From an uncultured Prevotella sp. (GTDB taxonomy: Bacteria > Bacteroidota > Bacteroidia > Bacteroidales > Bacteroidaceae), in NCBI GenBank assembly GCA_934202525.1, contig CAKPYB010000024.1, forward strand, positions 1-52,694: a DNA stretch of 52,694 nt, written 5' to 3'. This document shows positions 612-41,743 of this stretch, in pieces. The position numbers were made by a program, and so were the translations under genes. The stretch's first letter is position 1. Each line of letters opens with the position of its first letter. Below the pieces are notes generated by a model. The model searched no databases. It was given only the letters and a program-made list of their open reading frames with translations, and was not told where the DNA came from.

Positions 612-1145
612 CTACTCTAAGCCGTCGCCTCCTCCTTCTCCAGTGGTTCCGCTACCGCCCTGGTCGGTGTTGTCACCACCAGGGGTATCCTTTCCGGTAT
701 CCTTCCCAGGATCCGGGGTGGTATCCGGGGTGGTGCCATCACCTAACAGAGCAGAGGCCTTCTTCAGCGTAGCTTCGAGGTTGATGGTCTTGGCGCTGAA
801 CTCACCGGTGCCACGAGCACGGAGACGGAAACCGTCGATGTTCTTGGCGATGGTGAACTCCTTCTCTGAGGCGGCTCCCTCCTTGTTGCGGATGCCGATG
901 GAGAAGATGGCGAGGTCATCAATCTTCACAGCGAAACCTTGCAAGGTGAGTTCCTTGACGCACGATACCATATCGGTAATCATGCCCTTGATGGCTCCCT
1001 TAGAGAAAGGAGTGTTGTGGCTAGCCATGTGTTCGGCCAGGCCGTCGATGTCTACCGTCTGAGTGATGACTGGATAGGCGTAATACTTGCCGTATGCCTC
1101 TGGCATCTTGGCGTTCTGATTTAGTTTTAGTACGTAAAGCAACAT
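612..1145 (-). CDS. HU-HIG family DNA-binding protein
   Basis: This 177-residue protein has an HU-like fold in residues 1 to about 125. It resembles the Bacteroidales HU-HIG proteins annotated as HU-like or DNA-binding. The last 40 residues form a low-complexity tail rich in Thr, Pro, Gly and Asp (repeats of DTTPD and GKDTGKDT) ending GDGLE. Such acidic or Gly-rich tails are common in this family and are probably disordered. The family is expected to bend or coat DNA as a dimer, but its target is unknown. It is the third gene of the minus-strand VirE, DUF4248, HU, smalltalk cassette, and the spacers on either side are filled with repeats. Confidence 0.82.
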   Translation of the reverse strand: MLLYVLKLNQNAKMPEAYGKYYAYPVITQTVDIDGLAEHMASHNTPFSKGAIKGMITDMVSCVKELTLQGFAVKIDDLAIFSIGIRNKEGAASEKEFTIAKNIDGFRLRARGTGEFSAKTINLEATLKKASALLGDGTTPDTTPDPGKDTGKDTPGGDNTDQGGSGTTGEGGGDGLE

Positions 1146-1862: not shown

Positions 1863-1943
1863 AGTAAGAATAATAAGTTATTACGTGTTCAGTAAAACCA
1901 ATAAGAAATTTGCGTGCAGAGAAATATCTATTAGAGTTATGCT

Positions 1944-2009
1944 TCGTAAGTATGATACTTAGCCATCGTAACCATGATACTTAGTGGTCGTAACCAAGAT
2001 ACTTAATCC
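1944..2009. repeat. Three-unit 22-bp tandem repeat
   Basis: Three consecutive 22-bp units start at 1944, 1966 and 1988. All begin TCGTAA and carry a GAtACTTA core (TGATACTTAG, TGATACTTAG, AGATACTTAA). The last unit runs over the stop codon of the primase gene (2003-2005). The period is the same as that of the larger degenerate array at 40584-40913. Confidence 0.85.
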
Positions 2010-4279
2010 TCCATGGTATCGTTAGGATCGATGAAGGCATCGTTGTTGATTTCGCTACCTTCCTTCTCTATCACAGCCCAGCCGTTGCCGTTCTTCTTGT
2101 GAATCTTCTTGAATCCAAGACGCTTCATCACGTTACCGATGTTCTGGTTGTTCAGGTTCTGGCGAAGGGCAGGGTTGATGCCTATCCTCTCCAGTATCTC
2201 AGCACTGTAGCGGAACTTGATAAACTGTAGCGGCGTATCTGGCTCCGGCACCCGGTAGTAACGGAGTATCTGCTCCTCGGCATAGTTGGCTACCATGAAG
2301 AGGCGGTTGTGACTGCGCATCAGTTCGATGTCATCCCTCGTCAGCCAGTATGTCCACTCCAGGGGCTCGCCCTTAGGATGGCTCATCACCTCCTGACCCA
2401 GTGCCACTGCCTCGGCAAACACGTGGTCGTAGTCTATCGGGTGCTCTATTGGACTCTCGATGCTCTTTACCAGCCAAGGACAGTAGCGGCGGTTCTCCTC
2501 GTCGGTGATGAACTGCTGGTTGTTGGTGGTGCCGCAGAGCGATCCACGGTGGGGCATCTCTGAACGGTACTTGTCGTAAGGTCGGCGTATGGAGAATGTC
2601 ACCTTGGTCATGTTGCTCTTGAAGGCGCTCAGGTTCTTGCCGAATACCATCTCAAACTCGTCGAGACAGAGCAGAGCCTTGCTGCTGAAAGCTTCCATGA
2701 AGTCCTTGTCGGTATAGGCTCCCGTCGAGTCGTTGAGGAAGTACTGGCGCAATTGTGGGGGCAACAGCATGTGGAAGAACGTGGTCTTGAAGATGCCGCC
2801 CTTTCCCACGAAGATGAGTATCATCTGGTTCACCACCTTCAGCGTTACCCACGCCACTACCATCGCTACCAGCCACTTCTTGAAGAAATAGCGGAAGAGG
2901 CTCTGCGTATGTTCGTTGGCGGGCAGGTTTTCCACCTCGATGCGGTCGGCGAGCTGGTCGATGTAGTCGGGATCCTCTCCCTTCTTCCATTTCGGCAGAC
3001 TGCGCAGGTAATCGTCCAAGGGGTCGAACGGCTCGCTGAAGTCGCTGTTGATGATGTTGTGCAAGGTCTTCTCCGAGAGATGCAGTCCCGACTCGTCCAT
3101 CTCGCTCCAGATGGAGTTCTCGATATTGTCGTCGATGCGTACCCAGTCAGGATACTTGCCGTCTAAAACGAAGCGGCTCTCCACCTCGTAAAATCCCGTC
3201 AGCACGTTTCGGCGGAACAGATAGTGGGTGAGTAGCCACTGCTTGATGCCCCTTACCGATGGCTTGGCGCTGCGCCCCTCGCCATGGCGATAGAAATGCC
3301 AGATACCAAACTTGTTCAGATGCTTGTAGCGAGACTTGATGACAGAAGCCGTATCTTCGTAGCTGGTGCCAAACTCACGGTCGGCGTAGGTCAGAACTTC
3401 TTCCTGCGGGATGCCATAGTAGATGCAGATGTCGGCAAAGTGCCATACATACTCGTTGTGATGCTCAGGCTCGAAACGATAGCCCCACAGGTCGAGCAGT
3501 TCCTTGATATGGGAAGCCGCTTCCTCGATGGTAGGCACACCCTTGTCGCTTGACTTCGCCTCCTCTTTCACCTTGCTGCTTCGCTTTACTCCCTTGGCGT
3601 TTCGCCTGGCAGAATACTTCGCCTGCAATGCCTTCTTCGTGTAGAGGGTTTTCAGGTCCTTCGGTCCCAAGACAAAAGGCTCGGCATCCCAGCGGAAATA
3701 GGCATCCGGGTCGTAGGCAAGACCGGCGCATCGGGTGATGTCTACACACTGCTTGTCGGGAGCAATGCCCAGGAGCTGGGTGTAGTAAGCCATCGCCTTC
3801 TGCAGCACGGCATCGAAGAGTTCCAGCACGCTGATGTCGTCGTCATCCACAGGATGGTAGGCACAGAATACTCTGAATCCCCTGCCGCTCACGGTGACAT
3901 ACTCTACCATCGTATGATTGTCGCCTCTCACCAGTCGGATAAGCTGCTCCATATCTTCCTTCTTCACATGGTCGAAGTCGAGCTGGAACATGTAGGTAGG
4001 TTTGAGGAAGTCGGCAAGTTGTCTGCCGTAGCCGTTCATGAGTGCCGAAACCGTGATGGCAGGCATCTCAGGCTTGTACTGGTCGGCAAACTGCTTGCTG
4101 ATGGCGAGGCGCTTGCGGTAAGTCTCGGTCATCATTCGTAGCTCAGGGCTAGAGGTAATCACGCTCTTGAGATACAACCAGTCGGCGAGTGGATGGCTCT
4201 CCGAAGATTTGATACAAGGGAAGTACGATGGCATCGTAGCTGTCTCTTTCATACAGTTGGGGTTTGATTCTTTTTCCAT
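2003..4279 (-). CDS. VirE-type primase-helicase (BT4734/BF3469 family)
   Basis: This 758-residue protein has two catalytic parts. The N-terminal BT4734-like domain shows motifs typical of archaeo-eukaryotic primases: LDFDH (D101, D103), SGRGF (131-135) and an Asp at 180 in CVDITR. The C-terminal VirE domain is a P-loop ATPase with Walker A GKGGIFKTT (about 492-500) and Walker B LLCLDEFE (536-543), resembling helicases of plasmids and phage satellites. The residues between (about 205-250) are Lys/Ser-rich and likely a linker. It probably primes and unwinds DNA, but the substrate is unknown. It heads the DUF4248, HU, smalltalk cassette, and iteron-like repeats lie just upstream. Confidence 0.85.
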   Translation of the reverse strand: MEKESNPNCMKETATMPSYFPCIKSSESHPLADWLYLKSVITSSPELRMMTETYRKRLAISKQFADQYKPEMPAITVSALMNGYGRQLADFLKPTYMFQLDFDHVKKEDMEQLIRLVRGDNHTMVEYVTVSGRGFRVFCAYHPVDDDDISVLELFDAVLQKAMAYYTQLLGIAPDKQCVDITRCAGLAYDPDAYFRWDAEPFVLGPKDLKTLYTKKALQAKYSARRNAKGVKRSSKVKEEAKSSDKGVPTIEEAASHIKELLDLWGYRFEPEHHNEYVWHFADICIYYGIPQEEVLTYADREFGTSYEDTASVIKSRYKHLNKFGIWHFYRHGEGRSAKPSVRGIKQWLLTHYLFRRNVLTGFYEVESRFVLDGKYPDWVRIDDNIENSIWSEMDESGLHLSEKTLHNIINSDFSEPFDPLDDYLRSLPKWKKGEDPDYIDQLADRIEVENLPANEHTQSLFRYFFKKWLVAMVVAWVTLKVVNQMILIFVGKGGIFKTTFFHMLLPPQLRQYFLNDSTGAYTDKDFMEAFSSKALLCLDEFEMVFGKNLSAFKSNMTKVTFSIRRPYDKYRSEMPHRGSLCGTTNNQQFITDEENRRYCPWLVKSIESPIEHPIDYDHVFAEAVALGQEVMSHPKGEPLEWTYWLTRDDIELMRSHNRLFMVANYAEEQILRYYRVPEPDTPLQFIKFRYSAEILERIGINPALRQNLNNQNIGNVMKRLGFKKIHKKNGNGWAVIEKEGSEINNDAFIDPNDTMED

Positions 4280-14600: not shown

Positions 14601-17600
14601 GCGCATCGTCGTTGACTCATAGTGCTGTCGATTTCAGCGATGTGTCTTCATTCCCTGTTACAGGTGTCGTATATTATGACGGAACAGACTATCCTGTGGA
14701 GGGTTGTAACTTCTATGTGGATGGAACGATATGCAGCAAGGATGGCGAGGCAGTGACTACCGACGAAGAAGGTAAGTTTACGCTCAGCGTACCTATCGGT
14801 GAACACTTCATCCAAGTGAAGAAGGACGGACATGAGTTTATAAGCAATGGACGTTATCCAGAAGACCCTAATGGTGTGGGTACCAAGATGACCTTTGACA
14901 AGAGTATCAGCAACTTGGAATTCTTGGATGCTACACTTGTCAACTTCACAGGTCGTGTGGTAGGCGGTAGCATCGAGGGCGACAAGCCTTTGGGATTCGG
15001 GCAGAGCACGAACAATATTGGTATGGCAGAGATTATTCTTCAGGCACAAGATACCAAACGTCGTCTCAATGTCGTGAAAGTAAAGAACGAGACCTCTTAC
15101 TCTTATGAGACCAATACAGACAATGTAACCTGTGCATCTGCAACAAGCAAGATAAGCAGCAAATCATGGCGTGGAGCCAAGGAGGATGATGCCGACTATA
15201 GCAAGAGTATTTTCATCCTGACTGATGAGCAGACTGGTGAGTTCTCAGCATTGCTTCCTCCGCTGATTTATACTGTGCAGAGTGTCAAGGTGAAGAGCAC
15301 CAATCAAGATGTTGGTAGTTCTGTCACACTCGATTTGAGCAATGCACTGCGAGAGAATACGGATACTCTCTATGCCGAAAATGGTGTGGATTACGAACTG
15401 TATACTTATAATACAGCCCTTAGGCAAACCTATCATAGCACACCGTCGTTTGCAGTGAAGCAGAAAGGTGCTGAGGCTGGTGCGTTCGGTATCGACAACT
15501 ATCATGTAGAGGATATGGACGGTGAGGCAGATGTCAAGATTTACACCGCTTCCGAAACTGATGGCGTTAAATACACTTATGGTTATCCTGTGTTTGTCTC
15601 TGGTGACAACTATACTTTCGAGTTTGAAGGCTTTGAGGAGTATGTCAATCAAGATGACAAGGATAATGTCGTGACAAGCCGTGTGCCATTGGCTGGTAAT
15701 ATAGTAACAATCAGCAATGCCATGTCGGCAGACCAGAAGGTATGTGCCAAGGACATGAGTACCTATAAATATGGTGACCTGCTTGAGTTGGAAGAGAATC
15801 AACTCCAACTCGATGATGACGGAAAGGCAACCTACAAGTGGAAGGCTGGCTTGCCAAATATCACAGAACCTTATACACGTACTCTTTCCATTAATTATGA
15901 CATAGAAGGACGTTCGTATGCATGGAATAAAGGATTGGAAGGTATTGTGCTTGGCTCGCTACCTACAGGCAATAACTTTGTGACAGCAGGGCCAGACATC
16001 GTGGATATGATTTTGCGTGACCCTCCAGGAACCAACTCATTTGCTGCTTGGACTACGGGTAGTGTGACTACTACCAGTAAGGTGAAGGGTAGAGCATGGT
16101 CTTCTGAGAATACTGCGATGACTACCACGCATTTGGGTGTGAAAATAGAAACACTCACAGGTTCTCCATTCTTCCAGGTCGCTTCTGATTTTGAAACCTT
16201 AGATGACTTAGGTGTGGGTATTACCGCAACGACTGAGGGAGAAAGTTCTGATACATGGGTGCGAACGGTAACCAATACTAAAACCATATCTACATCATCA
16301 GCTCCTGAGTTTGTTGGTCCGATAGGTGATGTTTTTATAGGAACTGCTACCAATATTTTGTATGGAGCAGTGAGAAACGTTGGTATTCGTCGTGCGGATA
16401 ACAATGAGTTTGAATTGAACTTGAAGGACATGATTTCTACAAGTTTGGATTTCAAAACGGCATTCAACTATACTGCCAACTATATAGAAAATGTGCTTCT
16501 TCCTAACTTGGAGAGCGTACGCAATTCATTCTTGACCAAAGTAAATGAGATAGGTAGTCCTACGAATAATACGGAAAGCCCTGTTTATCTGACCACGTTG
16601 AGCGAGGAAGATGAGAGGTTCGGTAGTAGCAATAGTGATAAAGAGGTGTGGGGAGAGCAAGCTGTGGCAAGCAACAAAGTTTCCGAGAATGAAAACCTTT
16701 TTGTCGGTCCATCCTATACCATTGTATGGCCAAAAGACAATACCAAGTGTTATAGTGATACTATTGCTTGGTACAATCTACAGATCGCAAATTGGAAGAA
16801 AGCGTTGGCAACTAATGAGGAACAGAAAGTAATGGCAATAAAAGATACGCAGGCTTCTGTGCAGAACTATTCTTTCGATGCAGGTTCTTCTGTAACAGTG
16901 ACTACGGCTGTTGATACCACTTCCACACATACATACGATATTACGGTGATGGGCTTGGCAAAGTTATCCAATGCTTTTGGTTTAAGAGTGAATACAACAG
17001 GTGTGGATTGTACTTTGGAGACAACTACTGGAGGTGGTACTCACAATATAAATGAAACATCGGAGTCTCATTCCGCAGAAATCAGCTATACCTTGGCAGA
17101 GGAAGGCGATGATGATGCCATCTCTGTGGATGTTTTTGATGGAAAAAGAAAGAGTGGTACGCCGATTTTCTCTCATGGTCCAGTCTTCTATACTCGTGGT
17201 GGACAGACCAGCAACCCTTACGAGGCTGAGGTGAAGACAAAGTATTATTCGCCTGGAACTACCATCATGGAGGCTACCATGCAGATAGAGGTGCCTAAGA
17301 TTCGTGTCAACAACAATCGCACGGCAAGTTTGAGCAATGTGCCAACAGGTACTCCTGCCAACTTTACCTTGCAACTCACCAATGAGTCACAGATAGACGA
17401 GGATGTCTATTACAAGTTGCTGCTTATCGACGAGTCGAACAACAAGGGCGCCAAGGTCTCTATTGATGGAATGCCACTTACGGATGGTCGTTTGATCAAG
17501 ATACCTGCAGGTACAGAAGTAACAAAGGCTTTGCAGATTTCGCAGACCGACCAAGGTGTGCTCGATTATGAGGACATCGGCATCGTATTGGCTTCCCAAA

Positions 17601-23423: not shown

Positions 23424-24140
23424 TTATACATTAAGGAAATGTTCTTCTAGTTTTTCCCTTGGCATGTCTGTCGTGTCGTGATAATGCAGATGGTGGTTCA
23501 CGCAGGCGATGTGCTTCACGTTGTTGAGCACCTCGGCGATGTCGTGGCTCACGATGATGATGGCGCACTCCTTGTTGATTTGCTCCAGCATCTCGTACAT
23601 CTGTTTTTGGAATCTTCTGTCGATGTAGGTGTTGGGCTCATCCAGTATCACTATATCGGGTTTCGAAACAATGGCGCGGGCGAGGAGTACTCGCTGCAGC
23701 TGTCCGCCGCTCAAGGCTGCGATATGGCGGTCTTTCAACTCCGTGAGCTGCATCTGTTCCAGACAGTCGAGAACCTGCTGGTGCTGTGCCTGGGTGTATC
23801 TCGAAAAGAGACTTTTGGTCTTGCTGAGTCCTGAGAGTACCACTTCATAAACGGAGATAGGGAACTGTTTGTCGAGATGGTTGTATTGGGGCAGATATCC
23901 CATGCTGATTTCCCTTACTTCCTCTCCGTCTTTATGAAAGCGGATGCTGCCGTCTGTGGGTTTCATCAGTCCCAGGATGAGGCGCATGAGGGTTGTCTTG
24001 CCACCACCGTTGGGACCGATGATGCCAAGATAATCGTCTTTGTAGACGGTGAGGTTGATGTCGTGGAGCACCTCCTTGCCTTCGTAACCAGCCGAAAGAT
24101 GCTCTATCTCTATTAACTTTGAACTTTGAACTTTGAACAT
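23424..24140 (-). CDS. znuC: Metal ABC transporter ATP-binding protein (ZnuC-like)
   Basis: This 238-residue protein is an ABC ATPase with Walker A GPNGGGKTTL, signature LSGGQ and Walker B DIVILDEP, then a switch His in IVSHD. It matches the zinc/manganese (ZnuC/MntB) subfamily, supported by the solute-binding gene upstream. The first residues (MFKVQSSKL) come from a TTTGAACTTTGAAC repeat that overlaps the start, while the family core begins only at IEIEHLSAGYEG. The repeat thus seems to have supplied the start codon. No permease gene is found next to it. The partner permease is either elsewhere or lost. Confidence 0.85.
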   Translation of the reverse strand: MFKVQSSKLIEIEHLSAGYEGKEVLHDINLTVYKDDYLGIIGPNGGGKTTLMRLILGLMKPTDGSIRFHKDGEEVREISMGYLPQYNHLDKQFPISVYEVVLSGLSKTKSLFSRYTQAQHQQVLDCLEQMQLTELKDRHIAALSGGQLQRVLLARAIVSKPDIVILDEPNTYIDRRFQKQMYEMLEQINKECAIIIVSHDIAEVLNNVKHIACVNHHLHYHDTTDMPREKLEEHFLNV

Positions 24141-24147
24141 TGAACTT
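24115..24147. repeat. TTTGAAC low-complexity repeat forming the znuC start
   Basis: Four near-identical 8-bp runs (AACTTTGA, with one AACATTGA) span the znuC start codon on the other strand. The translated part gives the N-terminal MFKVQSSKL. Confidence 0.8.
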
Positions 24148-24177
24148 TATGATTAGTTATCGTTCTAACAAAGCTTT

Positions 24178-26580: not shown

Positions 26581-26685
26581 AATGTTGAATGTTGAATGTT
26601 GAATGTTAAGTGTTGAATGTTGAATTAGGCTAGCGCCCTTGAGTCCGTTAGGCAATTCAACATTCAACATTCAACATTCAACATT
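26581..26685. repeat. Palindromic TTGAATG repeat (long hairpin)
   Basis: An arm of repeated AATGTTG units (26581-26624) faces its complement (26654-26685, repeated ATTCAAC) across a 29-bp centre. The stem is over 30 bp with a few mismatches. It fills the gap between purD and the 315-residue membrane-protein gene. It may act as a terminator of purD's neighbour unit or as a dispersed mobile-type repeat. Confidence 0.85.
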
Positions 26686-28034: not shown

Positions 28035-30380
28035 TTACTTGAGATAATCGAAGAAATAATTGCTGATGCGCTCATGCAGATGAGTGCTCTGATGACCTCT
28101 CATGTTGTGAGGCTCGCCAGGATAGACGAAGAAGTCTGGCTGGGTGCCTGCTGCGATGCAAGCCTTCAGGAAGGTGAGGCAGTGCTGTGGCACTACAGTC
28201 ACATCGTTCAGGCCCTGGATAATCTGCAACTTGCCCTTCAGGTTCTTTGCCTGATAGAGCAGAGAGGTCTTCTTGTAACCCTCTGGGTTGGTCTGTGGAG
28301 TGTCCATATAGCGCTCGCCATACATCACCTCGTACCAGTGCCAGTCGATTACCGGACCGCCTGCTACGCCTACCTTGAACACATCAGGGTGGTTGGTCAT
28401 CAGCGAGATGGTCATGAATCCGCCGAAGCTCCAGCCGTGAACGCCAATCTTGTCAGCATCTACGTAAGGAAGCGTCTTCAGATATTCCACACCCTTCATC
28501 TGGTCTTGCATCTCAATCTGTCCGAGCTGGCGGAAGGTAGCCTGCTCGAAAGCCTTGCCACGGTTCTCGCTTCCACGGTTGTCGAGGATGAAGAGCAGAT
28601 AGCCCTTTTCTGCCATGTAGGTTTCCCAACCACGGCTAGAGTAGTTCCAGCGTGCATCTACGTTGTGGGCATGAGGTCCACCATATACATATATAATGGT
28701 AGGATACTTCTTGTTAGGGTCGAAGTTTACCGGCTTCACCATTCTCCAGTAGAGGTCGGTTTCGCCATCGGCAGCCTTGATGGTACCGCAGCTGTACTCA
28801 GGCACATTGTAGCCCTTCCAAGGGTTCTCGGCTGTGAAGTAAGCGGTGCGCTTGCCGTTCTCGGTGTTCACGAGGGCAATCTTGCGAGGCACGGTAGGAG
28901 TAGAGTAGTTGTCGAAGACATACTGTCCGTTCTCGCTCAAAGTGGCACTGTGCCATCCCTTGCCGCAATCATCTACCAGCGTACGCTTGCCGGTCTTTGT
29001 ATCTACGGCAAAGATGTTTCTCTGGATAGGCGATTTCTCGTTGGATGCGATGATGATGCTCTTGCGCTTGCTGTTGAAACCGAGCACTTCCATCACCTCC
29101 CATTTGCCGGAAGTCAACTGCCGGATTGAAAGTGAAGAGTGAAGAGTGGAGAGTGAAGAATTCTCTTGCTTTTTGGATGAAGATTCAGCATTTGAATTCT
29201 TCGTTCTTCGTTCTTCGTTCTTCACTTCACAGATGTAAAGGTGGTTGTAGCCATCCTTGCGAGTCTGCATGATGAAGCTGTTGCTGTCCCAAGGCAGGAA
29301 CTGGATTGGGTGGCAAGGTTCTACATATTTCTCGTCGGTCTCGCGATAGAGTTCGCCTGTCTTCTCGCCGGTTTCTGCGCTGTAGGCAGTCAGGCGGCAG
29401 TCGTTCTGGTCGCGGTTCAGTTCGAACATATAGATGGTCTTGCTGTCCGGACTCCATGCGATGTTGGTGAAGTAGCGGTCGGTTGGATCGCCAGCCTTCA
29501 GATAGATGGTCTTGCCGGTCATGCAGTCGAACACGCCTACGGTTACCTTATGTGATGTCTCGCCAGTCATCGGATACTTGTCTGGTGCAGGAGTAGCAAT
29601 GCAACTCTGTGTTTCAGGATGATTGAAACCGATTTCCGGGATGTCGACCTGCGGATAGTCGGTTACCATACTCTGGTCCATGCGATAGAAGGCGAGCAGT
29701 TCGCCGTTCGGACTCCAGAAGGTTCCCTTGCTGATACCGAACTCATCGCGGTGAACACTCTGTCCATAAACAATTTCGCGGCTTCCGTCCTTTGAGAGCT
29801 GGAAATCGTGAGATTTCTTTTCTTTTGTCAGGGCGTTGCTGGTTACATCGAAGGTACGCACATAGAGGTTGCTGCCCTTCAGATAGGCGAAGGCGTTCTG
29901 CTGGGCGTTAGCCTCCAGGAGGTTCTCGCCGTCAGCAAAATCCATCTCGCTCAGCAGCTTATGCTTCTTGAAGTCTACGGTATAAGTCTTGCTGCCGTTG
30001 CTTACCATCACGATGCTCTTGCCTGCAAAAGGGAAGAGAGCATTGTAGAGGGCTCTTACCTTGATGTCCTTGGTCGGAGCAATCCACTGGTTGATGTCGT
30101 TGATGCCGAAGAGTTTGGTCTCCTTGCCTGTCGTCTTGTTGACGAGATAGCAGGCATCCACATCCTGGCGAACGAGTTCATTGCCCCACCAGGTGCACCA
30201 GCGGTTCTTAGCCACCATGTTACGATAGTTGTTGCCGCCGAAGTTCAGGTCTTCCAGCGTAAAGGTTTTCTCGCCTTTCTGGGCAGGAACCACGCCCTGA
30301 GCCTGTAAGTCGGTTGCATTCATAGCCATCATAATCATAGCAGCAAAAGATAATTTATAAATTGAATTCTTCAGATTCAT
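28035..30380 (-). CDS. Dipeptidyl peptidase IV-like S9 peptidase
   Basis: This 781-residue protein has a signal peptide (1-28), a beta-propeller (about 50-530) and a C-terminal alpha/beta hydrolase domain. The triad is visible: Ser651 in GWSFGG, Asp726 in GLNDV and His758 in EPHNMRG. DPP-IV enzymes cut Xaa-Pro or Xaa-Ala dipeptides from N termini and act in the periplasm. It is oddly interrupted in the propeller: residues about 385-418 (ending SSLSTLHSSLS) are repeat-encoded, whereas the family runs directly from the YNHLYICEV strand to RQLTSGKW. The insertion keeps the frame. Confidence 0.9.
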   Translation of the reverse strand: MNLKNSIYKLSFAAMIMMAMNATDLQAQGVVPAQKGEKTFTLEDLNFGGNNYRNMVAKNRWCTWWGNELVRQDVDACYLVNKTTGKETKLFGINDINQWIAPTKDIKVRALYNALFPFAGKSIVMVSNGSKTYTVDFKKHKLLSEMDFADGENLLEANAQQNAFAYLKGSNLYVRTFDVTSNALTKEKKSHDFQLSKDGSREIVYGQSVHRDEFGISKGTFWSPNGELLAFYRMDQSMVTDYPQVDIPEIGFNHPETQSCIATPAPDKYPMTGETSHKVTVGVFDCMTGKTIYLKAGDPTDRYFTNIAWSPDSKTIYMFELNRDQNDCRLTAYSAETGEKTGELYRETDEKYVEPCHPIQFLPWDSNSFIMQTRKDGYNHLYICEVKNEERRTKNSNAESSSKKQENSSLSTLHSSLSIRQLTSGKWEVMEVLGFNSKRKSIIIASNEKSPIQRNIFAVDTKTGKRTLVDDCGKGWHSATLSENGQYVFDNYSTPTVPRKIALVNTENGKRTAYFTAENPWKGYNVPEYSCGTIKAADGETDLYWRMVKPVNFDPNKKYPTIIYVYGGPHAHNVDARWNYSSRGWETYMAEKGYLLFILDNRGSENRGKAFEQATFRQLGQIEMQDQMKGVEYLKTLPYVDADKIGVHGWSFGGFMTISLMTNHPDVFKVGVAGGPVIDWHWYEVMYGERYMDTPQTNPEGYKKTSLLYQAKNLKGKLQIIQGLNDVTVVPQHCLTFLKACIAAGTQPDFFVYPGEPHNMRGHQSTHLHERISNYFFDYLK
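29127..29226. repeat. In-frame low-complexity repeat inside the DPP-IV gene
   Basis: About 100 bp of GTGAAGAGTGAAGAG-type sequence, then TTCGTTCTTCGTTCTTC, interrupts the propeller. The two arms are near-complements and could form a hairpin. Related DNA lies inside the activase gene at 34510-34600. The length preserves the reading frame. Confidence 0.85.
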
Positions 30381-33242: not shown

Positions 33243-36200
33243 TTATTTTGCGATGCTGTCCAGGAAGAGGAGCAGTCGGTTGGTGACGTTTACCTCTGAA
33301 ACACCGGAATCGAAGTCGAGCGATACGAGGTTGAGTGTAGGGAACCGGTCGTGGAGACGTTTCTCGATGCCCTTGGAAATCACGTGGTTAGCGATGCAGC
33401 CGAAAGGCTGGAGCGAGATGATGTTGTTCACGCCATCACGGATGTAACCTACGATGTCGGCAGGCAGGAGCCAGCCTTCGCCAAACTGGGCTGCGAGCGA
33501 AACCAGTCCCTGTACGTCCTTCGCATCATCATAGATATTGGTGAACGGACGGAAGTAGCGGAACTTGCCGGCTGCCTTGTTTACCTGGCGCAATCTTCTG
33601 CCTATCAGCGCCTGATAAGCGCCCTTGATGATGAAATCGGGCACTTTGGTGCAACTCAGCCGCATGTGTTTCTGTATCTCCACGTTCACAAATTCCTGCA
33701 GGAAGAAAGGGGCAAGCAGAGGCGGAACCACCTCAATGCCGTACGAAATGATGTTCTGCTCCAGGAACTGGTGGGCGAAAGGATTGAACTTCAGGAAGAT
33801 TTCGCCTACGATTCCTACCTTCGGCAACGTTCTGTCGAGGGTCATCTGGTTGAATTCTTCGGCTGCCTGTTCCAGGAGTCGGATGAGTCCTTTGGCTGAA
33901 TTCTGGGCGATAGGGCTGTCTATCAGCTGCATGTATTTATCGCGCAACTCTCTGGCAATGCCCGGTTTACGCTCTCTTACGATGCAGGCGTTGTACATCT
34001 CGTTGATTGCATCGCCATAGAAAATGGCGGTAACGATAATCTGACTGTATTTCAGCCAAGGCACATTGAAGCCGTCCTGCTCGTTATAGTCTTGCTTGTC
34101 GTCTGTTGAGCCTGATGCTTCGCCCGTTGAGGCTGTTACACCGAGTGTGAGCAGCGGAATGTCCTGGAATCCATTGGAAATCATCGCACGCTTGATGAGG
34201 CCGGCGTAGTTGGTTGCGCGACACTGGCCGCCCGTCTGACTCATCACTACTGCCGTATTATTCAGGTCGTATCTGCCTGATTTCAAGGCTTTGATGATGT
34301 CGCCGACGATGAGGGTTGCCGGATAACAGACTTCGTTGTTGGCAAACTTCAAGCCGAGTTCGGCGCTCACCTCATCGCTCATCGGAAGTACCTCAACATC
34401 ATAGCCTATCAGTTTCAGGATAGGCGGAATGATAGGGGTGAGGTATTCGGTCATGAAAGGAGCGAGAATCTTGCGATGAATATCCTGCTTGGTGAATACC
34501 TTGGTCTGCTGTAAATGTTGAATGTTGAGTGTTGAATGTTGAATTTCTTCTGCTGTTGAATTTTTCACTCTTCGTTCTTCACTCTTCACTTCCTTTACTC
34601 CCTTCAGGCTTTCTATCAGCGAGCGGACACGGAGTTTCAGGGAGCCGATATTGCTCACGTCATCTATCTTCAGCAGCGTGAACGGCTTGTTGTGGCGCTT
34701 CATGATGTCGCGAATCTCGTCCTGTATAAAACTGTCAGGACCGCAGCCGAAGCTGGTCATCTGGACGAAATGAACCTCATCGCCCTGTTCGGCAGCCCAT
34801 TGTGCTGCCTTCAGAATGCGGTTCATATACGCCCATTGCTTCACGAGATAAGTCTCTGGCTGACAGTTGTATGCTTCGTTGTTGTCCTGGCTGGCTAATG
34901 CTGCCTCATTTCTTTCTGCCGCCAGGTTCTCCAGATTGAAGTCTTTGAAATCTGCAAAGAGATTACCCCGGGCGATGTCTTCGCTGATGACGTTGACTCC
35001 CAGATTGGCAATCATCTCGCTCAGCTTGTGCTGAATCAGCGGGTCAGTATGATAAGGACGGCCCGCCAGCAGAATCGTAAGTCCCTTGTTTGGCTTCTGA
35101 GTCTTGTCTTCGTTCGTTTTCTGAGCCTCTGTTTCTTCATTTTTCAGAATCTCCCAGCCCTGTTTTTTAATCTCAGCTGCATATACTGCCTGAGCATAGA
35201 GGGCCTCTCTCAGCGCTTTATGGGCAGTCTTCTTGCTTACTCCCAGTTGCTTGAGATAATCGGTAATCTGTTTTTCCAGCGCCTTAGGCTGGGCAAAGTT
35301 GATGACGGGCGTATCGATCGGTTTCTTCAGATTGATGACCGACTTGATGACATCGCTGTAGCCCGAAACGACCGGACAATTGAAGCTGTTCAGCGTATTC
35401 TTCGGGTCGTCATTATGTTCATAAACCACGTATGGCATGAGGATGCGGTCTACCTTCGGGTTCTCGTTGAGTTCCTTCAGATGACTGTGAGCCAGTTTGG
35501 CCGGGAAGCAGATATTGTCGCTCATCACCGTATTCAAGGCTCCTTCATACTGGCTGAAAGTGGAATCGGAAGAGAGAAGCACGCCCAATCCGGCAGCACG
35601 GAGCAGCGCATTCCAGAACGGATATTCCTCGTACATGTTGAGGATGCGAGGAATGCCTACTTTGACGTTGTGTTTTACAACGTCAAGTGGGTTAACCGTC
35701 TCTCTGTCAAAGAGTAAACTATATTTGTATTCGTAAATATTTTTGCCTTTTGTCCCGTTTGCTCCCTTGTTGTTGAACACACGCTCACACTTGTTTCCGG
35801 AGTAGAACCTGTTGCCGCCGGCAAAGGTGTAGCGGGAAACATAACAATGGTTTTCGCAGCCTTTGCATTGCAGCTGCTTGGTTTCGTAATGAGCCAGATT
35901 CTGCAGATCATCGATGGATCTTGATGAGGCAGGGTGCTCGTCTTCTGCAGATGTGCGATGATTGTAATCAGCCGCCGCATGAAGGGCGCAGCCGTAGGCG
36001 CCCATCAGTTCAGGCATGTTGCTTCGTGCCACTTCGGTATGGGTGAGCAACTCAAAGGCTCTTACCACCGCATCGTTTCTCATCGTACCTCCCTGTACAA
36101 CGATTTTGCCTCCAAGGTTCTCATTACCATGGAGTTTCAATACCTTATAAAGACAGTTCTTGATGACCGAATAAGAGATTCCGGCAGAAATATCAGCTAC

Positions 36201-39366: not shown

Positions 39367-40518
39367 ATGAATGATGAGATAAGAATCATACCGGTAACAA
39401 CAAAAAAGGGGTTGAAAACCTTCATTCAGTTTCATTATGATCTCTACAGGGACCATAAGTTTGCCATTCCTTTTTTGCGTTTCGACGAGATGAATACGCT
39501 GGACCCGAAGAAGAATCCTGCCTTCGAATTCTGCGAGGCGCAATACTTTCTGGCGGTTGACAGCGAGGCTCGTATCGTAGGTAGAATAGCTGCCATTATC
39601 AACCATCGTGCCAACGAACAGTGGAACAAGAAGCAGGTTCGCTTCGGTTGGTTCGATTTCGTAGATAATGTTGCGGTTTCCTGTGCCTTGTTGCGCACGG
39701 TAGAAGAATGGGGCAAGAACAGGGGAATGAACGAATGCGTTGGTCCGCTCGGATTTACGGATATGGACCGTGAGGGCTTGCTCATCGAGGGCTTCGACCG
39801 GAAGTCTACGATGTATATTAACTACAACTATCCTTATTATAAGACGCATCTGGAGAGTTATCCGCTCTATGAGAAGGATAACGATTGGCTGGAGTACCGC
39901 ATCAGGATTCCGGAAGTGACGCCGGCTAAGTTTGCCAAGACTGCCCAGATGATAGAGAGCCGATATAATCTGCATGTTCATAAGTTCACCCGCAAGGAAC
40001 TTACCACGGGAGGAATGGGCAGGAAGGTGTTCGAAATCGTGAACGAGACCTACAAGAATCTCTATGATTTCCAGCAGCTTACGGAGAAGCAGATAGATGA
40101 ATATGTGAGCACTTATATCAAGAAGGCTGACTTGAACCTGGTGACGGGTGTGGTGGATGGCAACGCTGGCAACAAACTGGTTGCCTTTGGTGTTTCCTTC
40201 CCTTCGTTTACCGATGCGCTGCGAGAGATAGGCAACGGCAAGCTTTTCCCTACGGGTTGGCTGAAGGTGCTGAAGGTGCTGAAGTGGCACAAGACGGATA
40301 CGGTAGATTTGCTCTTGATTGGTGTTCTTCCTGAATATCGCAAGAAGGGAGCCAATGCGCTTATTTTTGCCGATTTGATAGAGCAGTATCGCCGTTATGG
40401 CTTTAAATGGGCAGAGGCAATGCCGCAGATGGAGACCAATACCGGTGTTCAGAGCCAGTGGCAGTATCTGGAGAGTGAGCAGCATCGCCGTCATCGCTGC
40501 TATAAGAAGAAGATTTAA
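39367..40518 (+). CDS. GNAT-like N-acetyltransferase (YghO-type)
   Basis: This 383-residue protein shows GNAT-like acetyltransferase features late in the chain. A beta-strand pair is followed by LIGVLPEYRKKGANALIF (about 316-333), the acetyl-CoA pyrophosphate-binding loop pattern. The N-terminal half (about 1-200) is a related but degenerate fold with conserved acidic and Trp residues. Acetyl donor and acceptor are unknown. It is a single gene with its own promoter and stop. Downstream lies an unusual repeat array. Confidence 0.7.
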   Translation: MNDEIRIIPVTTKKGLKTFIQFHYDLYRDHKFAIPFLRFDEMNTLDPKKNPAFEFCEAQYFLAVDSEARIVGRIAAIINHRANEQWNKKQVRFGWFDFVDNVAVSCALLRTVEEWGKNRGMNECVGPLGFTDMDREGLLIEGFDRKSTMYINYNYPYYKTHLESYPLYEKDNDWLEYRIRIPEVTPAKFAKTAQMIESRYNLHVHKFTRKELTTGGMGRKVFEIVNETYKNLYDFQQLTEKQIDEYVSTYIKKADLNLVTGVVDGNAGNKLVAFGVSFPSFTDALREIGNGKLFPTGWLKVLKVLKWHKTDTVDLLLIGVLPEYRKKGANALIFADLIEQYRRYGFKWAEAMPQMETNTGVQSQWQYLESEQHRRHRCYKKKI

Positions 40519-40583
40519 AAACCTCTTTTTGGGGTCGTTTTGGTGTAAAAAGATAAAAAATGGGCTAAAAAGTTAAAAAAACT

Positions 40584-40913
40584 AACTCATAGTTTTGTGG
40601 TTCTCAACTCATAGTTTTCCGGTTAGCAACTTATAGCTTTCCGGTTGAGAAAATTAAGAATGCATCGCGATAGGATGAAAAATGGCTGTAAAAGTGCTGT
40701 TTTTTCCATCGCGATGCATTATTTTTTGCGTCGCGACGCAATAATATTTCCATCGCGACACACCAATTCTTCCGTCGCGACGCAATAATTACCCCCTCGC
40801 GAGGCATCATTGAAGCCTCCCGCTGGTCATCATTTAAGCCTCTTATCGGTCTTAATATAAGGCACTTATCCGTCTTAATATAAGGCACTCATCAAGATAA
40901 AAAGATGCGCTCT
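40584..40913. repeat. 22-bp-period degenerate tandem array (about 15 units)
   Basis: The sequence divides without gaps into 22-bp units from 40584. Neighbouring units resemble each other and drift along the array. Units 1-3 share CATAGTTTTCCGGTT-type cores. Units 4 and 6-10 hold TCGCGA at exactly 22-bp multiples (40665, 40709, 40731, 40753, 40775, 40797). Units 11-12 share TnAAGCCTC. Units 13-14 share GTCTTAATATAAGGCACT. Unit 15 is weak. A small array of the same period lies at 1944-2009. A 22-bp step is two helix turns and not a multiple of three, so protein binding or RNA is likelier than coding. No CRISPR-like constant repeat is seen. Confidence 0.9.
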
Positions 40914-40932
40914 GGAAAGAGAAAATTAAGAT

Positions 40933-41086
40933 GGGGGTTAACAGGGTTAACAGTTAACACCCCAAAAATGCATACTTCCATCCACACTCTTATATAAAAA
41001 TAAGTATATATATATTATTATATAATAAGGTACGCGAGGGGGACCATGCAAAAAACAGCTGTTAACTGTTAACCCTGTTAACCCCC
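40933..41086. repeat. Perfect 27-bp inverted repeat around an AT-rich core
   Basis: The left arm is 40933-40959, with GTTAAC three times (GGGTTAACAGGGTTAAC inside). Its exact complement is 41060-41086. The 100 bp between includes a run of alternating A and T and an ACTCTTATAT that also occurs in the core at 4346-4544. It lies just after the 22-bp array and before the end of the response-regulator gene. The arms could pair in RNA or bind protein. It resembles the origin-like structure upstream of the primase, but no replication gene is nearby. Confidence 0.85.
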
Positions 41087-41104
41087 CAACAACAAAGTTA
41101 ATAG

Positions 41105-41743
41105 TTAAATATAGTATTCTGCCGAATCAACCAAACCGGCTCTCAGCGCATATTTCGTAGCCTCATGAACGTTGTTTACGCCCAGCTTACGGAAGATGTT
41201 CTTGCGGTGGGTATTGACCGTATGGAAGCTGGAAAAGCGCTTCTCGGCTATTTCTTTCGTCGTCATTCCCAGCGCAATGTCTTTCAGAATCTCTGTCTCG
41301 GTCTTGGTGAGGTTGATTTTCTCCTGCTCCTCCTGTTTCGGAGCCAGAAGTACCTCCATCATGCGCTGGCAGACAAAACGGTTGCTTGCCACACAGAAAC
41401 GGATTGCCTCCTTGATTTCCATTAGCGAACACTCCTTCAGCAACACGCTGAACTGCGTACTGCTGGCTATGAGAATCTTCACGAAATCGGCGCTCAGATC
41501 CTCACTGAACAGAAGCCAGCGCGTATATGGAAAACGCTGGTTTAAAATCAGTAACTCGGCAGCATCATTGATGTCGAAAAGGGTATAGTCGAGTATCACG
41601 ACCGTATCCTCGTTCTCCCTTAAGGCAAGCATCAGGTCTGCCTTGTCTTCGACGGTCCGGGTTTCCAAACCCTCCATCTTGCTGATCACATAGCTCAATC
41701 CGGCTCTTGTGATGTCCTGTTTGTCTGCTAATAGAATCTTCAT
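41105..41743 (-). CDS. LuxR-type response regulator
   Basis: This 212-residue protein has an N-terminal receiver-like domain (1-120) and a LuxR-type HTH (about 143-205, motif TKTETEILKDIA...TVNTHRKNIFRKLGV). Receiver residues are mostly in place: Asp7 and Asp10, phospho-acceptor Asp52, Ser80 and Lys103. It would therefore be controlled by phosphorylation from a histidine kinase. No kinase gene is adjacent. The gene stands alone, with the 22-bp array and inverted repeat downstream. Confidence 0.85.
   Translation of the reverse strand: MKILLADKQDITRAGLSYVISKMEGLETRTVEDKADLMLALRENEDTVVILDYTLFDINDAAELLILNQRFPYTRWLLFSEDLSADFVKILIASSTQFSVLLKECSLMEIKEAIRFCVASNRFVCQRMMEVLLAPKQEEQEKINLTKTETEILKDIALGMTTKEIAEKRFSSFHTVNTHRKNIFRKLGVNNVHEATKYALRAGLVDSAEYYI

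Follow-up and report, generated by a model that had tools for sequence, protein, structure and literature searches.

The array at positions 40584–40913 of the window (the whole 52,694-nucleotide stretch of DNA analysed here, from an uncultured Prevotella sp.) is a member of a group of short intergenic arrays that occur across the bacterial family with a period of 22 bp, sometimes 23 bp. The letters of the units vary by species and the spacing stays at about 22 bp, probably because the arrays are rows of sites for fast-evolving DNA-binding proteins. We propose, tentatively and at somewhat less than an even chance, that the units are protein-binding sites on the same face of the helix and that HU-HIG proteins (PF18291) are their likeliest binders.

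The first-pass annotation had described 40584–40913 as a gapless array of about 15 units of 22 bp; taken as a whole, this observation was partly confirmed and its interpretation partly supported. The lag-22 self-match was 0.523, against 0.258 ± 0.025 and a maximum of 0.341 in 1000 dinucleotide shuffles, whose top value over all lags from 8 to 59 was 0.370, so the period persisted against the shuffled control. The strongest 330-bp stretch at lag 22 in the whole window starts at 40537. Period 22 held for sections A and B (Table 1), TRF reporting it at 40584–40646 and within 40701–40806, but not for 40804–40895, where the period is 23 (TRF, 40825–40893); in 66-base windows starting at 40802–40846, the lag-23 match was 0.67–0.84 versus 0.27–0.34 at lag 22. 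Instead of gapless 22-bp units, the array thus consists of three sections, B being partly irregular and C having period 23. The stepwise change of unit sequence along the array was borne out, as was, by position count, the spacing of six TCGCGA motifs (40665, 40709, 40731, 40753, 40775 and 40797) at multiples of 22 bp with one unit skipped; the motif occurs 10 times across the whole window. No evident gene lies inside 40584–40913, in agreement with the view that the array is unlikely to be coding.

Table 1. Coordinates of the array sections, neighbouring genes and related features in the window.
Feature	Positions	Strand	Description
Section A	40584..40649	.	three 22-bp units, each core AACTYATAGYTTT plus variable end
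Section B	40650..40803	.	22-bp register, six TCGCGA cores; irregular at ~40671-40705
Section C	40804..40895	.	four 23-bp units, CATCATTTAAGCCTC type
Left neighbour	39367..40518	+	383 aa, GNAT-like; E 0.00099, just under Pfam cut-off
Right neighbour	41105..41743	-	212 aa, LuxR-type regulator, GerE PF00196
Second array	1936..2019	.	three to four 22-bp units, CTTAGCCATCGTAACCATGATA type
HU-HIG gene	612..1145	-	177 aa, PF18291; candidate array-binding family

The location between GNAT and LuxR genes was correct as to the neighbours; in addition, the two genes are convergent, and the array therefore lies between two gene ends. An inverted-repeat element with GGGTTAACAGTTAACA-type ends (40934–41084), separate from the array, adjoins it; copies of 97% and 89% identity were found at two other places in G001, the nearest genome compared, along with many end pieces of 25–35 bp, of which several lie in the 2849–2897 kb interval. 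The second array lies on the 5′ side of the window's HU-HIG gene, about 0.8 kb away, and aligns in G001 with an equal number of units. The window also holds a 55-bp tandem repeat at 1–248 (4.5 copies, 94% matches) and 7-bp tandem repeats (e.g. AATGTTG, TTCTTCG) at 1152–1200, 24115–24148, 26581–26685, 29127–29223 and 34514–34590.

The array site was compared with genomes of other species. At the orthologous site in G001, flanks of about 95% identity enclose four A units and another palindromic repeat element, and sections B and C are absent. The array is thus not a fixed, invariant segment at the species level; a fixed segment is what the first-pass annotation had named as refuting its reading. 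A GCCCTG...CAGGGC-rich palindromic element (L008:443–750) occupies the place of sections B and C in G001 and recurs in that genome at L300:2040–2290, next to an array and some 150 bp from an HU-HIG gene on the 5′ side of the gene. Visual inspection of the 700 bp on the 3′ side of the GNAT gene showed no array in three loci labelled Segatella copri (L020, L021 and L023). Among 60 genomes of the genus, two contained DNA of the window array, G001 having it at four places and G258 at one; the A–B–C order was found again at an unlinked G001 locus (2861 kb), and core AACTYATAGYTTT also occurs at further places in that genome. Arrays of about 0.5–1 kb at G001 L017/L121 (443 kb) and L124 (573 kb) are made of successive sections with different 22- or 23-bp units, the sections common to both loci standing in reversed order.

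A survey of self-matching at lags 10–60 showed that the array is not a singleton but belongs to a dispersed class. The survey covered 81 sources (1.43 Mb), comprising the window and 80 loci that surround the GNAT orthologue in relatives and were the best of 159 confirmed stretches. Twenty-five segments, including three in the window, were self-matching at lag 22, compared with 15 at lag 21, one at lag 23, four at lag 24 and none at lags 19, 20, 25 and 26; after block-shuffling of the 81 sources, no segment was found at any lag. Further peaks fell at multiples of 7 (lags 14/21/28/42) and of 9 (lags 18/27/36) and were taken for short microsatellites. Crude longest-ORF gene calls, which underlie the coding, placement, neighbour-clustering and upstream counts given here, put 29 lag-22 segments in noncoding and four in coding DNA. 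The density of lag-22 segments per Mb was 27.5 in G001 (400 kb), 92.5 in G132 (400 kb) and 89.2 in G189 (370 kb), and 1.9 in a 534-kb sample from six genomes outside the family, all from other Bacteroidales families, which yielded one segment.

The expectation that spacing is preserved while unit sequences vary was upheld between genomes. The pattern TCGCGA-N16-TCGCGA-N16-TCGCGA, with one mismatch allowed, occurred in 27 of 201 genomes of the family, and AGCGCT, a built-in control that is itself palindromic, was abundant in a few other genomes, with 118 places in G059; among the examples listed, the flanking bases differed by species. The 400 kb of G132 contained at least five unit families. 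Of 97 arrays tested for dyad symmetry of the whole unit, 41 gave a significant result (p<0.05), namely 14/24 in G132, 7/27 in G189, 4/10 in G001 and 16/36 in the 80 loci and the window, and the other 56 did not. An earlier symmetry test with a different statistic gave significance for 10 of 41 arrays and, among the window units, covered A and C only, neither of which had a significant dyad. A step of two helical turns and the dyads in 41 of the 97 arrays fit the proposal that a protein reads every unit from the same face, although the A and C units of the window had no significant dyad in the earlier test. Two dyads 11 bp apart were dropped as separate evidence, because a periodic array with one dyad has a second half a period away.

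These data also bear on the main structural rival, that the arrays are neutral minisatellites, produced by copying or slippage whose inherent step is about 22 bp and left to drift with nothing bound. The likeness of adjacent units, the single A unit that G001 has in excess of the window and the 56 arrays with a non-significant dyad are all in keeping with such growth. One preferred period, however, is not by itself explained by it: lag 22 is dominant, lags 19–20 and 25–26 are empty, and we know of no preference of slippage for one period across unrelated sequences. Dyad symmetry above chance argues against drift, as does the very uneven column conservation of 44 spacers in G189, in which five of 16 columns were invariant and the others free, the copies being related by descent and hence not independent. 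We consider neutral minisatellites unlikely.

In the scenario that we prefer, each unit would be a site, often dyad-symmetric, for a DNA-binding protein, and the two-helical-turn spacing would turn every site to the same face of the helix, where adjacent protein molecules could touch and might bind cooperatively. Unit sequences would diversify fast because each array family follows its own protein. HU-HIG proteins, with their HU/IHF fold and several to many paralogues per genome, may be these binders, including those of the A, B and C units of the window; some paralogues appear to have a private array just 5′ of their gene, which would work like an autoregulatory operator, and dispersed copies elsewhere would serve as further sites. 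A bolder and doubtful extension is that each HU-HIG paralogue of Segatella/Prevotella reads its own fast-diverging 22–23-bp array family, is autoregulated by the array at its gene, and uses the dispersed copies to mark or fold the chromosome, with only the two-turn register, and not the sequence, under general constraint. HU proteins usually have little sequence preference in binding, which weighs against HU-HIG as the binders, and we know of no binding sites for HU-HIG.

The link to HU-HIG comes from counts of array neighbours. In G001, G132 and G189, an array lay within 400 bp upstream of 8 of 24 HU-HIG genes and of 46 of 813 other ORFs, a count that took one AT-rich microsatellite as an array, and downstream of 2 of 24 and 80 of 813, respectively. 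After 14 genes were added and low-complexity segments were removed, which also lost a visible array (L325), upstream arrays accompanied 10 of 38 HU-HIG genes and 43 of 804 other ORFs (p=5e-5). With upstream gaps of at least 200 bp, the counts were 10/35 and 36/305 (p=0.015), and with gaps of at least 300 bp they were 7/31 and 29/230 (p=0.16, non-significant); long upstream gaps thus explain part of the association. Over whole 3.3-kb flanks there was no excess in G132 (3/8 versus 0.34 at random) or G189 (4/8 versus 0.35) and a small one in G001 (2/8 versus 0.10). None of the flanks of six weak PF18291 matches, treated as generic HU genes, held an array (0/6).

In the G132 sample, nine of 12 HU-HIG genes found by BLAST were within 600 bp of an array (expectation, 2.1), and 14 of the 16 TCGCGA arrays listed lay no more than 500 bp from an HU-HIG gene (random mean, 0.42), on its 3′ side and not, as the operator reading would have it, on its 5′ side. 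The HU-HIG genes of this genome stand in repeated cassettes with a lipoprotein-like gene, so that co-duplication explains part of the association; different cassettes bear different array families 5′ of the HU-HIG gene. Two such lipoprotein-like genes, at L230:4581–6149 and 15692–17281, are paralogous, encode 522–529 aa, have no Pfam match and are paired with HU-HIG. The idea that G132 arrays are transposon ends was rejected, as the repeated neighbours are the lipoprotein-like gene, which has no Pfam match, and the HU-HIG gene. The dominant AGCGCT array of G059 lies directly 5′ of one HU-HIG gene. A TACGTCSCGACGCA array resembling section B (G001 L329:431–526) lies on the 5′ side of an HU-HIG gene, at a distance of about 1 kb that includes another open frame.

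Across families, HU-HIG was absent at E<=1e-10 from the six nearly array-free genomes of other families (G025, G026, G027, G030, G031 and G032). G035, of a further family, had nine matches at that threshold, and the 68 kb sampled from it (28 kb unselected, with one array in L178 and none in L350, and about 40 kb chosen for six HU-HIG genes) contained six segments at lags 21–23, two of them directly 5′ of HU-HIG genes. Nine more genomes of other families gave only three HU-HIG matches, in frames of 92–98 codons with internal stops and resembling ordinary HU. The number of HU-HIG matches (65 in G132, 17 in G189 and 20 in G001) does not track array density in the same genomes.

The main weaknesses of the HU-HIG reading are that no HU-HIG gene adjoins the window A/B/C array and that the association is partly accounted for by gap length; furthermore, among the HU-HIG places listed in G001, none adjoins a place of the A family. 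Both weaknesses favour a rival that is somewhat unlikely in our estimation, in which the same-face arrays serve other DNA-binding proteins (classical repressors, recombinase-like proteins or Rep-like proteins as in plasmid iterons) and the HU-HIG link results from long upstream regions and cassette duplication. The evidence of spacing and symmetry fits it equally, and several array families exist per genome, most of them away from HU-HIG genes. Against it, no other family was enriched among array neighbours in the one genome in which they were clustered, arrays and HU-HIG co-occur across families, and the window array matched none of 72,556 plasmid records and one phage sequence weakly (E=0.1). 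On these grounds, and because no viral contig contained two exact A cores, a plasmid or phage origin was rejected. TCGCGA occurred three times at 22-bp steps in 15 viral contigs, 12 with a GC content above 0.60 and three with 0.44, 0.51 and 0.53, and none of the 15 was like the window units by eye; several were 11-bp repeats. In the mostly GC-rich viral contigs L157–L171, TCGCGA is repeated, in several cases at 11-bp steps (TCGCGAGACAC type).

The arrays turn over between genomes. Those of one 20-kb stretch of G132 were not found at the syntenic places of G232, where the aligned flanks were 76–92% identical; one segment of different sequence was present in the G232 region instead, and the gaps between blocks differed in content and length. 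With crude ORFs and three genomes pooled, eight arrays were found in divergent gaps against about 17 expected by length, a count that left out 17 of 35 G189 arrays because they fall inside crude ORFs. Arrays inside open frames of at least 120 codons numbered 17/35 in G189, 0/41 in G132 and 1/14 in G001; we think that the G189 frames are spurious frames through GC-rich arrays.

Wholesale differences of this kind, at the window site and between G132 and G232, would also be expected of mobile-element repeats, that is, non-autonomous MITE or REP/BIME-type elements spread by a transposase, and the dispersed copies, the species-specific sequence and the placement mostly outside divergent gaps agree with this. 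The BrickBuilt repeats of Porphyromonas gingivalis are described as a MITE (PMC4596501). RAYT-type Y1 transposase genes (PF01797), however, were found in three of seven array-bearing genomes and missing from G132, G112, G171 and G220, the last three of which are 77–89% complete, and mobilisation by RAYT was rejected. IS5-like terminal inverted repeats of the GAGACCTTTGCA type, at up to three mismatches, did not occur between 39239 and 41869, and in the whole window such matches numbered 45 against 50.8 expected. Furthermore, neither a target-site duplication nor a clean empty site could be shown. Spread as mobile elements thus appears quite improbable.

An action at the RNA level, with tandem hairpins ending or stabilising transcripts at gene 3′ ends, is in our judgement very improbable. 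The region 40560–41110 folds 10.6 SD below 100 shuffles, an effect to which the adjacent inverted repeat contributes; palindromes are common among the arrays, and the deficit in divergent gaps points the same way. However, hairpins need no fixed 22-bp step, terminator-like sites at the window site numbered two against 1.2 expected, and no Rfam match at gathering score was found in the whole window. The halves of the spacer were less alike than random pairs (match versus random pairing, 0.457 and 0.605 in G059, 0.426 and 0.624 in G189, and 0.531 and 0.620 in G132), and an RNA hairpin was rejected on covariation, though a fixed non-palindromic spacer would give an equal result.

Ordinary repeat and motif searches easily overlook a repeat class that is set by spacing and not by sequence, and here the class attains tens per Mb in common gut bacteria. 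Among the literature matches listed, with subscription papers mostly outside the scope, no 22-bp array class was described in Prevotella or Segatella and no site for HU-HIG, and no paper in the literature searched named both HU-HIG and Bacteroidetes; the PDB contained no sequence matching the HU-HIG protein of the window at E<=0.1. Palindromic candidate RNAs, 250 in number, of which 230 are predicted to be terminators, are reported in PMC8040213, some of them from Bacteroidetes. If the link to HU-HIG is true, it would supply a large family of nucleoid-type proteins with a function and cognate sites, and would offer a natural experiment in the joint divergence of DNA-binding proteins and their sites.

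The iterons of plasmids such as RK2, R6K and F are direct repeats stepping by about 22 bp that a protein reads on one face of the DNA. The window array likewise consists of direct repeats with such a step, but the arrays studied here are chromosomal and dispersed. The neighbours of the window array are GNAT and LuxR genes. REP/BIME elements with RAYT contain a hairpin of 20–40 nt tagged with GTAG/CGTC. The present arrays resemble them in being dispersed, extragenic, palindromic and species-specific, as far as the available text of PMC2817692 and PMC3733652 goes, and differ in their head-to-tail 22-bp register. The first-pass annotation knew of no family that the array matched, which holds in part; a close relative in kind exists in the 23-bp BrickBuilt minisatellites, which, according to PMC4596501, are tandem 23-nt units without spacers, intergenic and dispersed, with 19 copies in P. 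gingivalis ATCC 33277, the units being imperfect with conserved and variable positions. The same paper mentions 22-nt tandem repeats in P. gingivalis W83, and PMC5771137 mentions a BrickBuilt copy. As described in PMC4596501, BrickBuilt comprises a single sequence family in one species group, with a leader, a tail and IS5-like inverted ends in some copies, whereas several unit families per genome occur here and no such ends lie near the window array. With its tandem, intergenic arrangement and periods of 22 and 23 bp, the window array nevertheless has in BrickBuilt (PMC4596501) its closest described relative in kind.
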